From assembly GCF_009769735.1 (NCBI RefSeq), contig NZ_WSRO01000002.1, positions 4,104,001-4,168,000 on the forward strand: a DNA stretch of 64,000 nt. Reading direction: 5' to 3'. The DNA comes from Streptomyces sp. BA2. Its GTDB lineage: Bacteria; Actinomycetota; Actinomycetes; Streptomycetales; Streptomycetaceae. Below the pieces are notes generated by a model. It was not told the DNA's origin. It saw only the letters and a list, made by a program, of their open reading frames with translations, and did no database searches. Every line of letters starts with the position of its first letter. Position 1 is the first letter of the stretch. Position numbers and translations under genes: made by a program. This document shows positions 41,786 to 46,417 of the stretch, one piece after another.

Positions 41786-41822
41786 GTGGGGGGGCGGTGC
41801 GGGCCGGGCAGGCGGGGCGGCG

Positions 41823-42068
41823 TCAGTCCTGCGTGGCGTACGAGAGGAAGCTCCGCCATGCTTCTGCGGGGACGGCGAACTGCGGGCTCTGGTGCAACTT
41901 GGAGTCCCGCACGTGGACAGTCGAGGGACAGCGAGCCACCTCGACGCAGTCTCCTTCACTGCCGCTGCTGTAGCTGGACTTACGCCAGGAGAGGGCTACC
42001 TCTACGCAGTCGTCGCCGTCGGAGCCGCTGTAGCTGCTCTTGAACCAGGCCAGATTGGACGTGTTCAT
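41823..42068 (-). CDS. DUF397 protein with duplicated motif
   Basis: 81 aa from the ATG at 42068, set by GAGGAG. Two consecutive DUF397 signatures, WFKSSYSGSDGDDCVEVA and WRKSSYSSGSEGDCVEVA, precede the usual VHVRDSK...W-x-F tail. It overlaps the XRE regulator stop by four bases. DUF397 proteins pair with WhiJ-like regulators in Streptomyces developmental control. Confidence 0.87.
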   Translation of the reverse strand: MNTSNLAWFKSSYSGSDGDDCVEVALSWRKSSYSSGSEGDCVEVARCPSTVHVRDSKLHQSPQFAVPAEAWRSFLSYATQD

Positions 42069-42907
42069 AGCGCTCCTCGCATCCGCTTCAACAGGCCCTT
42101 GGAGTCCTCGGCGTTGAGAGCCTGTGAACGCAGTTTCGCATAGCGCTGGAGCATGATGCTGACTTCCTTCGGGTCGGCGACCAGCAGGCCGCCACGCTGC
42201 CCCTCGGAGTATCCGAACCATCGATTACCCGGTGTCTCGGCCAGCCGTAGCGGTCCGTCGAACCCCGCATGGTCGGGCTGACGGGTCGGCATGATCTGTA
42301 GCTCCACGTTGAACTGCCCTGCCCGAGCCCGCAGATGGTCGATCAGCTCCCCCGTCGCCTCTGGTCCGCCAGTGCATCGCTCAACCAGAGCCTGCTCGAT
42401 GATGAAGCTGAACGCGATCGGCGGCCGACGCTGGAAGAGCTTCTGGCGCTCCAGGCGAGCAGATACTTGCTGGTTGACCTGGTCCTCATCCTTCACCGGA
42501 GGGACGCTTTCGGTCACTGCCCGCGCGTATGCCTCCGTTTGAAGGAGCCCCGGGACCACCCGGCACTCGTACGTCCACAATGTCACCGCCTCCGCCTCGC
42601 ACTTCGCCCACTGCCGGAACCAACTGGCCAACCCCGGCTGCCGGGAGAGATGCCGCGCCGCGCCCCGCAGCGCCCCGAAGGCGTCCAGAAGCTCCTCCGC
42701 CCGCTCCACGAAGTCCGGCTGGGGAAAGCGACGCCCCTGCTCGATCTTGGCGACCGTCTGAACCGAGTACCCGACCGACTCGGCGAACTCCTCCTGAGTC
42801 AGGCCCGCCCGTTTACGGAAGGCCTTGAAGACCTCGCCGAACGTCCTCAGGCTGTCCGACACCTCCGGCTCACTACAGCCCGGCGACCCGCCCGCACCGT
42901 CCGTCAT
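42065..42907 (-). CDS. WhiJ-like XRE regulator (DUF5753)
   Basis: 280 aa. The helix-turn-helix covers about residues 22-75 (LTQEEFAESVGYSVQTVAKIEQGRRFP). A DUF5753 domain follows, with EAEAVTLWTYECRVVPGLLQTEAYARAV. Such regulators, with a DUF397 partner and an anti-sigma-like ATPase, are many times duplicated in Streptomyces and act in development and antibiotic control. It is divergent from the ATPase gene, with a palindrome between. Confidence 0.9.
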   Translation of the reverse strand: MTDGAGGSPGCSEPEVSDSLRTFGEVFKAFRKRAGLTQEEFAESVGYSVQTVAKIEQGRRFPQPDFVERAEELLDAFGALRGAARHLSRQPGLASWFRQWAKCEAEAVTLWTYECRVVPGLLQTEAYARAVTESVPPVKDEDQVNQQVSARLERQKLFQRRPPIAFSFIIEQALVERCTGGPEATGELIDHLRARAGQFNVELQIMPTRQPDHAGFDGPLRLAETPGNRWFGYSEGQRGGLLVADPKEVSIMLQRYAKLRSQALNAEDSKGLLKRMRGAL

Positions 42908-42996
42908 ACGAGGACACCTCCGTTGCGCCTGCCCCGCGTACCGCTCCCAACCCGCCCATGGTTACGGTCAGTTGCCAGCCCTGTCCACTCTCCGTA

Positions 42997-43021
42997 CTAG
43001 TACTCTGACGCAGAGTGCTAG
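42997..43021. promoter_or_regulatory. Palindrome between the XRE and ATPase genes
   Basis: CTAGTACTCTG (42997-43007), ACG and CAGAGTGCTAG (43011-43021) form 11-bp arms with one T.G mismatch. This is a probable operator for the XRE regulator, 90 bp from its start and 45 bp upstream of the ATPase ATG. Confidence 0.6.
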
Positions 43022-43065
43022 CCGCTGACCTGGTAAGCGAACGCGTAGGCGGCCACTTTGAGGCC

Positions 43066-43536
43066 ATGACGCCCAGCCAGACCCCCCAAGTCCCCGTCAC
43101 CGAGCGTGTGTTCGTCCAGCGCTTCAGCTCCACTCCGCGTGGTGCACGCCTCGCCCGGCACCTAGCCCTGCACCGCCTGAACGCATGGGGCATCCCGTAC
43201 GGCTCCGACGCCTCGGACACCGCCGCGCTGCTCGTCGCCGAGCTGGCCGCCAACGCCGCCACCCACGGCCGCGTCCCCGGCCGTGACTTCGAGGTGCGAC
43301 TCAGCCTCGACGCGTACACCCTCCGGATCGAGGTGTCGGACCCGCGCGGTGAGTGTCGCCTCGACGGGCCAGGAGCCGTAGACACCGCGCCGGCCGAGGC
43401 GGAGGGCGGGCGAGGGCTCCTCCTCGTCCAAGCCCTGGCCGACCGGTGGGCGGTCCTCGACCGCCTACCCATCGGAAAGACGGTCCGAGCCGAACTGGAC
43501 GGCATCGGCATCGGCACCCTGGGTGAGGGGAATTGA
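43066..43536 (+). CDS. Anti-sigma-factor-like HATPase_c protein
   Basis: 156 aa from the ATG at 43066; an in-frame GTG at 43015 falls inside the palindrome and is less likely. The N-box LLVAELAANAATHG and G1/G2 boxes (VSDPRGE, EGGRGLLLVQALADRW) are those of RsbW/SpoIIAB-like ATPases. It is divergent from the XRE/DUF397 pair, making a WhiJ-type trio. Its last codons and stop lie inside the left inverted repeat of the island. Confidence 0.88.
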   Translation: MTPSQTPQVPVTERVFVQRFSSTPRGARLARHLALHRLNAWGIPYGSDASDTAALLVAELAANAATHGRVPGRDFEVRLSLDAYTLRIEVSDPRGECRLDGPGAVDTAPAEAEGGRGLLLVQALADRWAVLDRLPIGKTVRAELDGIGIGTLGEGN

Positions 43537-43627
43537 TTAGCGTGGTTGCTGTGGGTGGGTGGCTGAGCGAGCCTCCATCCCGTGTGGGTGTGCGCGGGTC
43601 GGTGGGGGCTGACTTTCGTCGCCTGAT
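43513..43627. repeat. Left terminal inverted repeat of the 1.37-kb island
   Basis: 115 bp matching, in inverse orientation, 44769-44885 with about five mismatches and two small gaps. The central 57 bp (43532-43588 with 44809-44865) are identical. The outer end lies within the 3' end of the ATPase gene, including its stop codon. Confidence 0.92.
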
Positions 43628-43799
43628 GTTCGAACGTGGCCACGGAGTTGGACACCGGCGTTTACACGACGGGGGCAGGGCCACCCCGAGGGCGGTGTCA
43701 AAGGCCGCCCCAGAGCGCGGCGACCAACAAACCAAAGACGCAGCAACAGCAACGGCGACACCAACGAAGGGATACGCCCGTCACCCGCCCCTCGCTCAA

Positions 43800-44400
43800 C
43801 ACCACCGAACCACCCCTCGCTGTCGGTCAGCTGTCGTCACGGTCCATCCCTCGCCACCGGCCGCCTCTCGGCCGCCGCCACGAACCACCCCTCCCCGCCG
43901 GACGCCGCTCGGCCGCCATCACGAACCACCCCTCGCCACCGGCAGGATGTCGACCGCCACCACGGACCGTCCCTCCTCGTCGCCGGACCACCGGGCGCCG
44001 TCACGAACCGCCCCTCACCGCCGGACACCGTCGGCCGCCATCACGAACCTCCCTCACCGCCGGACGCCGCTCGGCCGCCATCACGAACCACCCCTCGCCA
44101 CCGGCAGGCTGTCGGCCGCCGCCACGAACCACCCCTCGCCGCCGGCCGCCGTCGGCCCTCATCACGAACCATCCCTCGCCACCGGCGGCCGCCATCACGA
44201 ACCACCCCTCCCCGTCGGCCGCCTGCCGGCCGCCGTCACCAACCGCCCCTCGCCACCGGACGCCGTCAGCCGCCGCCACGAACCATCCCTCGCCACCGGC
44301 CGCCTCTCGGCCACCGCCACCAACCACCCCTCACCACCGGCCGCCAGTCAGCCGCCATCACGGACCGCCCCTCCTCGTCGCCGGACCATCGCTCGCCGTC
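43800..44400. repeat. Degenerate tandem array with 41-bp period
   Basis: About 14 units with core CACGAACCACCCCTCGCC. Core starts are near 43838, 43877, 43918, 43959, 44000, 44042, 44082, 44123, 44163, 44196, 44237, 44277, 44318 and 44359, mostly 40-42 bp apart. Because 41 is not a multiple of three, the repeat cannot keep a reading frame, which argues against coding. GC-rich open frames through it lack ribosome sites. The period is close to four DNA turns. Confidence 0.85.
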
Positions 44401-44431
44401 GCCCGACCGCCTTTCGGCATCGATGAGCCTC

Positions 44432-44506
44432 CATTGCAGGAAAATCCCACCTGCTTCGGCAGTGAGCTGGGGTTTCGCGGGAAAGAAGTGCAACTTCTCT
44501 GCAATG
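44432..44506 (+). ncRNA. Candidate structured RNA, compact four-way junction
   Basis: 75 nt, less GC-rich than its surroundings. P1 is CATTGCAG/CTGCAATG (44432-44439, 44499-44506). P2 is ATCCCA/TGGGGT (44444-44449, 44468-44473) and encloses CTGC-TTCG-GCAG with a UUCG tetraloop. P3 is TTC-GCGG-GAA (44474-44483). P4 is AGAAGT-GCA-ACTTCT (44484-44498). P2, P3, P4 and P1 abut without linkers. The T.G pair in P2 favours the plus strand. It is not a tRNA. No promoter was identified; the RNA status is inference. Confidence 0.5.
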
Positions 44507-44768
44507 AGCCCCACCCGGCCCCACCAGGCCCCACCCGCGAAGCCCTCGCCCCGCGCGCCACAACCCCCGCATGCCCCGCACGCCCAGCCCGCGCGCCACC
44601 CACACCCTGCACGCCACCACCACCCCGCATGCCCCACCCACCCCTGTTGCTGCTGCCTTTGGCCCTCTGGCACACGTGGCGGGGTCTTATCGCTGAGGGG
44701 GGAGCGGTACCGGCGTAGGTGGTTGTCTGCTGTGGAAGGGAGGTTGGCAAATCTGGGCCCGTACGTAG

Positions 44769-44885
44769 ATCAGCCGACGAAAGTCAGCCCCCACCGGAGC
44801 CGCGCACGCCCACACGGGATGGAGGCTCGCTCAGCCACCCACCCACAGCAACCACGCTAATCAATACCCCTCACCCCGGGGTGCC
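44769..44885. repeat. Right terminal inverted repeat of the 1.37-kb island
   Basis: Inverse partner of 43513-43627. Its outer end includes the stop codon and last four codons of cbiO. Between 44506 and 44769 the island holds C-rich, GCCCCACC-like sequence with no supported gene. Confidence 0.92.
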
Positions 44886-45668
44886 GTGCCCTACGCCCGC
44901 CCGTCGTCCGTTCGCTGCAGCCGTCTTCGGATCGAAGCCGAACGGCAGCTCAAGCCGGTGCGCCCCCATCAGGTCCTCGTCGCCCAGCAGCTCCCCCGTC
45001 GGGCCGTCCGCCGCGATCACGCCCTCGCTCAGGATCAGCGCCCGGGGGCACAGTTCGAGGGCGTAGGGGAGGTCGTGTGTGACCATCAGGACCGTCACGT
45101 CCAGCGAGCGCAGGATGTCCGCCAGTTCGCGGCGCGAGGCCGGGTCCAGGTTCGAGGACGGTTCGTCGAGGACCAGGATCTCCGGCTCCATCGCGAGGAC
45201 CGTCGCCACCGCGACCCGCCTGCGCTGTCCGAAGGAGAGGTGGTGCGGCGGGCGGTCCGCGAACTCCGCCATTCCTACCTGGGAGAGGGCCTTCTGGACC
45301 CTGGCCTCCAGTTCGGGGCCCCGCATCCCTGCCGCCGCCGGGCCGAACGCCACGTCCTCCCGCACCGTCGGCATGAAGAGTTGGTCGTCGGGGTCCTGGA
45401 AGACGATGCCGACCCTTCGCCTGATCTCCGCCATGTGCTTCTTGCCGACCGGCAGGCCCGCGACGGTGACCGTGCCCGCGCCGCCCGTCAGGATGCCGTT
45501 CAGGTGCAGGACGAGCGTCGTCTTGCCCGCGCCGTTCGGGCCGAGCAGCGCGACCCGCTCGCCGCGGCCGATCGTCATGTCGACGCCGAAGAGCGCCTGG
45601 TGCCCATCGGGGTAGGCGAAGGCCAGTCCGGCCACTTCGAGGGAGAGTTCAGCAGTCACAGGGTCCAT
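44871..45668 (-). CDS. cbiO: Energy-coupling factor transporter ATPase CbiO (nickel/cobalt)
   Basis: 265 aa from the ATG at 45668, which overlaps cbiQ by 13 bp. Walker A is GPNGAGKTTLVLH, the Q-loop FQDPDDQLF, the signature LSFGQRRRVAVA and Walker B ILVLDEPSSNLDP. It powers the CbiMQO metal importer. The last residues come from the inverted-repeat sequence. Confidence 0.94.
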   Translation of the reverse strand: MDPVTAELSLEVAGLAFAYPDGHQALFGVDMTIGRGERVALLGPNGAGKTTLVLHLNGILTGGAGTVTVAGLPVGKKHMAEIRRRVGIVFQDPDDQLFMPTVREDVAFGPAAAGMRGPELEARVQKALSQVGMAEFADRPPHHLSFGQRRRVAVATVLAMEPEILVLDEPSSNLDPASRRELADILRSLDVTVLMVTHDLPYALELCPRALILSEGVIAADGPTGELLGDEDLMGAHRLELPFGFDPKTAAANGRRAGVGHGTPG

Positions 45669-46417
45669 CCCAACACGCAGACGACTAGAGCGGCGGACGG
45701 GAGGGCCAGTGCGTACGTCCACTGCGCGCGCGAGGCCGTGACCTCGTCTATCACCGGCATCGAGCCCGCATAACCCCGGCTGACCATCGCCAGATGCACC
45801 CGCTCGCCCCTCTCGTACGAGCGGATGAAGAGCGCGCCCGCGGACTTCGCGAGGACGCCCCACTGCCGTACGCCCCGCGCCTCGAAACCGCGTGACTCGC
45901 GCGCGATCTTCATGCGGCGCATCTCGTCCGTGATCACGTCGCCGTAGCGGATCATGAACGAGGCGATCTGGACGAGCAGCGGCGGCAGCTTCAGGCGCTG
46001 CAATCCGAGGAGCAGCGCGCGCAGTTCGGTGGTCGACGCCAGCAGGACCGATGCCGCTACGCCTAGCGTGCCCTTGGCCAGGACGTTCCAGGCGCCCCAG
46101 AGGCCGTTCACGCTCAGGGACATGCCGAGTACGTCGACCCGCTCGCCCTCCGCCACGAACGGCATGAGCACCGCGAACGCCACGAACGGGACCTCGATGA
46201 GCAGCCTCTTCAGGAGGAAGGGGAGCGGGACGCGGGAGGCGTACGCCACCGCGCCGAGCAGCACCGCGTAGCCGCCGAACGCCCACATGGCCTCGCGCGG
46301 CGTCGAGACCACGACGACCACGAAGCAGAAGACCGCCGCCAGTTTGGTGTGCGGAGGCAGTGCGTGCACCCGGGAGTGGCCGGGCCGGTAGAGCCGGTGG
46401 GCGTGGCCCGCGCCCAC
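45656..46417 (-). CDS. cbiQ: Energy-coupling factor transmembrane protein CbiQ
   Basis: 253 aa with about five transmembrane segments. The ECF T-component signatures are seen as ARG-like motifs near MKIARESRGFEARG and SYERGERVHLAMVSRGYAG, which contact the ATPase. It starts with GTG one base after the cbiM stop and is coupled to cbiO. It is part of the metal importer. Confidence 0.93.
   Translation of the reverse strand: MGAGHAHRLYRPGHSRVHALPPHTKLAAVFCFVVVVVSTPREAMWAFGGYAVLLGAVAYASRVPLPFLLKRLLIEVPFVAFAVLMPFVAEGERVDVLGMSLSVNGLWGAWNVLAKGTLGVAASVLLASTTELRALLLGLQRLKLPPLLVQIASFMIRYGDVITDEMRRMKIARESRGFEARGVRQWGVLAKSAGALFIRSYERGERVHLAMVSRGYAGSMPVIDEVTASRAQWTYALALPSAALVVCVLGWTL

Follow-up and report, generated by a model that had tools for sequence, protein, structure and literature searches.

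A repeated, probably mobile non-coding element with long inverted arms beside regulatory loci of Streptomyces sp. BA2

Introduction

Between an AbaA-type ATPase gene and a convergent cbiO-type gene of Streptomyces sp. BA2 lies an island of DNA bounded by long inverted arms, and the question raised by this locus is what the island represents and by which route it came to stand there. The preliminary description of the window (the whole stretch of 64,000 nucleotides analyzed here) considered a non-autonomous mobile element, an inverted duplication of a gene end and an invertible segment. In the open-access literature, which leaves most subscription journals outside, no paper was found to describe such an element by its title or the start of its abstract, and the available portions of PMC8269248, PMC10294661 and PMC4239341 contain nothing on it.

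Materials and Methods

Two motif models carry most of the comparisons below. Model R1 was built from the arms of BA2 itself and was run over 392 Streptomyces genomes. Model R3 was built from 26 single motifs of other Streptomyces, the window, genome G308 and Streptomyces sp. NBC_01446 being left out; it is thus free of window letters, but its 26 members were found via R1 and R2.

Results

Arms, borders and interior of copy A

The island is referred to below as copy A (Table 1). Self-BLAST aligned positions 43507-43641 in inverted orientation with 44756-44890 (137 columns, 91% identity), and a repeat search resolved the arms into inverted blocks of 92 nt at 92% and 43 nt at 86%. The longest exact inverted match within 43500-44900 measures 57 bp, as compared with at most 20 bp in 200 Markov shuffles, which bears out the identical centre noticed earlier. 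The arms had also been said to reach the ends of both genes, and the stop codons of the ATPase (43534-43536) and cbiO (44871-44873) genes indeed fall inside the arm matches. The section common to the other copies runs from ATTAG at 43536 to CTAAT at 44861, so that the gene-end part is peculiar to copy A: the left outward extension contains the final ATPase codons and most of the ATPase stop codon, the right one the cbiO stop codon and the final cbiO codons.

Table 1. Features of copy A and its surroundings (window coordinates), the further copies in BA2 (contig coordinates) and the G308 loci beside AbaA/BldB-type genes
Feature	Position	Strand	Basis or remark
BldB-type DUF397 gene	41823..42221	-	ORF start uncertain
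WhiJ-type regulator (HTH_31, DUF5753)	42065..42907	-	ORF list and domains
AbaA-type ATPase (HATPase_c_2)	43015..43536	+	stops within left arm
Left-arm outward extension, copy A only	43507..43535	+	self-BLAST; unlike in copies B, C
Left arm, copy A	43532..43642	+	repeat search, self-BLAST; motif-model match 43538-43640, R3 E 2.5e-12
Inner inverted repeat, left half (CAAAGACGCAGC...)	43732..43755	+	by eye; partner near 44644-44663
C-rich array, 41-bp unit	43837..44373	+	TRF: 13.4 copies, 74% matches; C 0.54, G 0.23
Central hairpin module	44432..44506	.	99% alike in copy B, diverged in copy C
Second C-rich stretch	44507..44650	+	C 0.61, G 0.18
Right arm (inverted), copy A	44754..44866	-	repeat search, self-BLAST; motif-model match 44757-44859, R3 E 5e-13
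Right-arm outward extension, copy A only	44862..44890	-	self-BLAST; unlike in copies B, C
cbiO-type ABC ATPase	44871..45677	-	stops within right arm
Islet extra to BA2: DUF397, regulator, ATPase and element	41787..44922	.	comparison with relatives
Copy B	C2:3800688-3802167		arm search of BA2
Copy C	C2:5319963-5320714		arm search of BA2
G308 elements/arms adjoining AbaA/BldB-type genes	L073, L074, L076, L077, L084, L085, L091, L096		

An RNA stem between the arms was considered as the cause of their likeness. A test for a long RNA hairpin, which looked for a G-U bias of arm mismatches on one strand, gave 43 vs 43 with 111 transversions; the stem was thereby rejected, and RNA pairing of the arms is not selected for. 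Inside the arm, RNAalifold predicted 0 pairs on the wide alignment A6 and 26 pairs, 4 of them with a double change, on A4.

Of the interior as first described, the 41-bp periodic array was recovered by TRF and the C-rich DNA is evident from the composition of both stretches (Table 1). The compact RNA-like fold stands in a reduced form: positions 44428-44506 do fold, with an 8-bp closing stem and -29 kcal/mol, but the effect is modest (z -2.3, equalled by 6 of 200 shuffles), and the shorter piece 44423-44500 folds unremarkably (z 0.08). The interior appears to contain no supported gene, as had been stated; this is judged from the low-complexity, overlapping character of its ORFs and not from family scans. 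Rfam families reached no gathering score in the window (best E 0.74), and none was found at E 0.1 in 14 other source loci.

Two further copies in BA2

An arm query on the BA2 genome (10.04 Mb, two contigs) returned six strong matches, the next one standing at E 0.09, and these form three inverted pairs, that is, three copies of an element of 0.75-1.48 kb. Copies A and B are alike over their entire length except the array; copy C has no array, its likeness being limited to the arms and the sequence immediately inward of them, and it contains two diverged hairpin modules with weak folds (z -1.3 and -0.5). The string TTAGCGTGG stands at the outer end of all six arms. Between A and B, arm identity is 0.99 for left with left and 0.94 for right with right, as against 0.85-0.88 across; since left arms are closer to left than to right arms, the copies were made as whole units with fixed ends. 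A candidate extra arm to the left of copy C (5319926) was rejected as a palindromic stretch upstream of the neighbouring gene, partly present in genome G147.

Corresponding sites in relatives

The closest relative examined, G147, is 94% identical to BA2 over cbiO-cbiQ and about 90-92% over other long matches. At site A, relatives share the stretch that leads from an EamA-type gene to cbiO. Eight relative regions, six with both flanks and two on short contigs with the cbiO flank only, contained neither the DUF397, regulator and ATPase genes (tblastn) nor an arm (R3, E up to 0.1), so that the whole islet is extra in BA2. G147 has different sequence here, and its cbiO C-terminus reads ...KTVKANR* versus ...KTAAANGRRAGVGHGTPG* in BA2 (by eye). 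As the ATPase locus is missing too, the element's own insertion at A is not separable from that of the locus. The space between the EamA-type gene and cbiO (41787-44922; L260-L267 in relatives) is filled by unlike sequence from one species to the next, a pattern that resembles an insertion hotspot. G147 has, downstream of its EamA-type gene (L260, near 10560), a long, perfect-looking hairpin, TTGCAGGAAAGTCCC..., resembling by eye the outer stem of the central hairpin of copy A; a similar start is seen in L029.

At site B, the DUF397, regulator and ATPase genes and the tRNA-Cys flank are present in G147, G117 and G187 and the element is missing; three relatives thus have the ATPase locus without the element, which makes the two separable at this site. 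It is not a clean empty site, the gap of the relatives being filled by other genes; G105 contains the tRNA flank only, without the element. Site C is a clean empty site, measuring about 150 bp in G147 versus about 1012 in BA2. The element is accordingly missing from G147 at all three sites, an absence that could be due to loss.

None of 60 relatives contained a full arm, the matches in three of them spanning no more than 28-31 bp (E 2e-4 to 5e-4). In the relatives examined at sites B and C, three motif matches stayed below threshold (E 0.02-0.08) and were read as noise. G147 is not among the R3-positive genomes listed, and we infer that it belongs to that 392-genome sample.

A related family in G308

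Strong R1 matches were confined to BA2 and G308, and 74 of the 392 genomes pass E 0.01. The weak matches, having no inverted partner, were at one stage taken for chance; this was dropped, as they belong to a genuine family in which most motifs are single. A BLAST search started from one G308 arm found 36 places, 34 of which are arms (E 1e-11 or better); by their coordinates, the G308 arms form 15 inverted pairs of 0.32-1.50 kb and four singles. The pairs were read in 14 of 15 cases, the pair near 3773359 being left out. Most elements display the end GATTGCGTGG, an inner inverted repeat (AAAGACCGCAGC at both ends, the counterpart of CAAAGACGCAGC in copy A), a central hairpin and a C-rich part; L098, L099 and L101 are without these landmarks. 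The interior sequence differs from that of copy A. Within elements, arm identity amounts to 81-96% (14 elements of G308, 17 with the BA2 copies), the value of 0.86 for copy A being lowered by a slice 2 nt too long at its right end.

Outside these two genomes, a lone arm of Streptomyces sp. NBC_01446 begins about 10 bp past an AbaA-type ATPase gene. A first pattern search of genome contigs gave no match; a second one yielded L104, a true single arm, and L103, which resembles it only in part.

Two further features of G308 were observed. Iterated 8-mers AACTG(A/C)TC stand in varying number just outside many arms (L073, L077, L078, L084, L085, L088, L090, L091). An ORF resembling an IscB-type RNA-guided nuclease (L035, 2730-3100; by eye) starts about 400 bp from one element.

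Placement and orientation

The nearest flanking gene in G308, where Pfam or HMM matches support it, turns its 3' end toward the element in 19 of 21 cases (three of these Pfam matches, L073 left, L078 right and L080 right, being below the curated cut-off), several within 14-52 bp. The two 5' cases are the left flank of L078 and an XRE regulator gene about 620 bp to the right of L088; unsupported or unscanned ORFs, such as both flanks of L090 and the left flanks of L099 and L089, were left out of the count. In BA2, four of the six flanks are gene 3' ends, copy C lying upstream of a gene start on one side. An ATPase or DUF397 gene of the AbaA/BldB type adjoins 8 of 18 G308 elements or single arms (Table 1), as well as copies A and B; copy C has no such neighbour.

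Relative to the abutting ATPase or DUF397 gene, the interior has the same orientation in copies A and B and in six of the seven readable G308 elements (8 of 9 together), L076 being the sole disagreement, on weak scores. This agreement speaks against inversion in place and for oriented placement.

The arm motif across Streptomyces and phages

R3 finds the window arms at E 5e-13 and 2.5e-12 (94 kb searched) and all six BA2 arms. At E 1e-5, with nine candidates scored per genome, 207 of the 392 Streptomyces genomes are positive, BA2 and G308 included; at E 1e-3, the motif was found in 13 of 25 Streptomyces and in 0 of 15 genomes of other genera. The arms are thus homologous to a motif of about 105 nt that usually stands alone.

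In 46 regions (L176-L201 and L210-L229, exclusive of BA2 and G308), clustered copies occur in 10, five of which (L188, L210-L213) were picked after two neighbouring matches had been seen among the matches listed; the copies point in the same direction in 13 of 13 neighbour pairs. An ATPase gene lies within 5 kb of a single motif in 14 of the 46 regions, or 16 genes per 547 kb as compared with 0 per 221 kb of cbiO regions, a small and unmatched control. Around 58 of 59 motifs (one weak partial match, L182, left out), genes show no strand bias: upstream, 27 lie on the same strand and 30 on the opposite one, and downstream the figures are 25 and 33. The 3'-end bias therefore belongs to the paired G308 element and not to the single motif. 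An integron-like cassette of a gene with a 3' motif, to which clusters such as L117 had drawn attention, was rejected on the same counts.

Several surroundings of the motif deserve mention. It often stands alone in accessory DNA, sometimes in two to four co-directional copies 0.3-4.4 kb apart. In G154 (L117/L210), a gene that by eye resembles those of Mrr-type restriction enzymes stands between two co-directional motifs, with a DUF262-like gene next to it. L176, L186, L212 and L228 have one block in common 2-4 kb before the motif, made up of GntR-like regulator, ATPase and NUDIX-like genes (by eye). In L111, L115 and L122, the motif is followed after about 200 nt by what by eye looks like the 3' end of a tRNA, an arrangement reminiscent of the edge of an integrated element.

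Among phages, the motif gave four weak records, two of them from one Streptomyces phage, and one exact pattern gave no match in viral contigs. In Streptomyces phage Gilgamesh (L199, 3997-4105), the match falls in a gene-free stretch (BLAST E 2e-3; R3 E 6e-11 over 547 kb). The whole island was not found on plasmids or phages.

Discussion

The island is a real, repeated and probably mobile non-coding element. On balance, we favour the more specific reading that it is copy A of a MITE-like non-autonomous element, placed just past stop codons by a putative enzyme acting in trans. A non-autonomous mobile element had been among the first suggestions, and it gained from the search for arm copies and empty sites: three copies exist in BA2, the element is missing at the corresponding sites of relatives, and G308 contains a richer related family. 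Terminal inverted repeats, several copies at unrelated sites and empty sites (clean at C, with complications at A and B), by which MITEs are recognized, were all found.

The element comprises two inverted ends of 105-115 nt around a non-coding filler (inner inverted repeat, hairpin and C-rich array), and according to this proposal its arms would be the binding sites of a recombinase or transposase encoded elsewhere. The enzyme would insert the element directly behind stop codons and for the most part in one orientation, comparably to Tn7, and the C-rich array with the hairpin may stop transcription, so that insertions would be neutral or useful.

Against the mobile-element reading counts the lack of a target duplication: in 17 elements, the longest string shared by the flanks averages 5.8 versus 5.6 in mismatched pairs, the true outer border being uncertain. 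Some transposon families make no target duplication. No parent copy longer than about 1.5 kb was found among the BA2 or G308 matches, nor was a transposase found. The unbiased gene strand around the single motif and the count of only four gene 3' ends among six flanks in BA2 also weigh against this reading.

The element resembles MITEs and other non-autonomous insertion elements in having no supported gene, inverted ends, multiple copies, lineage-specific occurrence and empty sites in relatives; it departs from MITEs in its ends of 105-115 nt, its length of up to 1.5 kb, the array and hairpin, the near-exclusive placement at gene 3' ends in G308, the target duplication that was not seen and a parent transposase that is not known. 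Tn7 inserts past glmS; like it, the element stands just downstream of a stop codon, mostly in one orientation, but it encodes no proteins, adjoins many target genes and displays no 5-bp duplication. With REP/PU intergenic repeats it shares multiple intergenic copies, gene 3' ends and stem-loops, but it is far longer, its arms are far apart, and it is represented by three BA2 copies and 15 G308 pairs, not by hundreds.

A farther-reaching proposal, which we regard as tentative and as having less than an even chance, concerns the motif itself. The sequence of about 105 nt would be the recognition end of an undescribed system of DNA mobility or transfer; doubled and inverted, it would give a protein-free element that is put past stop codons in one orientation, chiefly behind developmental-regulator loci of the AbaA/WhiJ/BldB type. 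ATPase or DUF397 genes of such loci (PMC10294661) adjoin copies A and B as well as 8 of the 18 elements or single arms of G308; the portion of that paper available mentions no such element, and the site-B locus exists without it in three relatives.

An unlikely alternative, though one of some weight, is that the element is a 3' insulator or terminator, in which a hairpin and a C-rich, Rho-loading-like array would prevent transcription from passing between a regulator locus and its neighbouring gene, the copies having been spread and kept alike by recombination or gene conversion and not by transposition. The gene 3'-end placement in G308 would agree with it, as would the strong central hairpins of that genome (z -7.2, -5.0 and -3.6) and the C-rich, G-poor second halves of five G308 elements (C 0.52-0.57, G 0.18-0.22); where an ATPase gene abuts, the C-rich, G-poor array or part is on the ATPase coding strand, in copy A as well as in L073, L074, L077 and L084. 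In S. clavuligerus, bidirectional transcript ends are described for 10 of 24 XRE-DUF397 pairs in the part of PMC8269248 available. However, the hairpin of copy A is modest and those of copy C are weak, most G308 interiors are rich in G over their first half, copy C faces a gene start on one side, arm identity does not track RNA pairing, and a terminator has no need of 105-nt arms common to plasmid motifs. The element may still contribute as a terminator or insulator.

It is distinctly improbable, in our estimation, that the arm motif is a transfer or maintenance site of plasmids or ICEs (clt-like) and that the paired element arose secondarily from ends of integrated plasmids retained in the chromosome. 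A search with one motif copy found 24 plasmid records, all from Streptomyces, and the gene table, which is incomplete, lists no gene at any of the matches; among the records is a linear plasmid of 21 kb that encodes a GntR regulator and a protein with an FtsK/SpoIIIE domain. The GntR-like genes in the vicinity of several chromosomal motifs, the three copies near sequence like a tRNA 3' end (both by eye) and the co-directional clusters point the same way. Like the clt and transfer loci of Streptomyces plasmids and AICEs, the motif is non-coding, directional and present both on plasmids and in chromosomal accessory DNA; unlike them, it has no constant transfer-gene neighbour, and its plasmid contexts vary. 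Moreover, plasmids carry the single motif only; the paired element was not found on them.

The invertible segment initially considered, an interior that flips by recombination between the arms, could draw on the length of the inverted arms but is very hard to reconcile with the orientation shared by eight of nine elements (L076 differing on weak scores) and with left and right arms that retain their identity. The decayed one-off inverted duplication of a gene end, which the resemblance of the outermost copy A arms, with the gene ends, to a mirrored ATPase end might suggest, is refuted for the whole element by three BA2 copies and 15 G308 pairs with related arms; the circumstance named in the preliminary description as favouring it, the same interior in related strains with no other copies, does not hold, as other copies exist, and it merits practically no credence.

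The motif, found in 207 of the 392 Streptomyces genomes and in 24 plasmid records, matches no Rfam family at the loci tested. Should it prove to be the handle of a mobility system, that system could be reached through it, and some of the turnover at the WhiJ/BldB/AbaA loci, of which there are many paralogues per genome, might be accounted for; if the element acts as an insulator, it would be a portable Streptomyces part.
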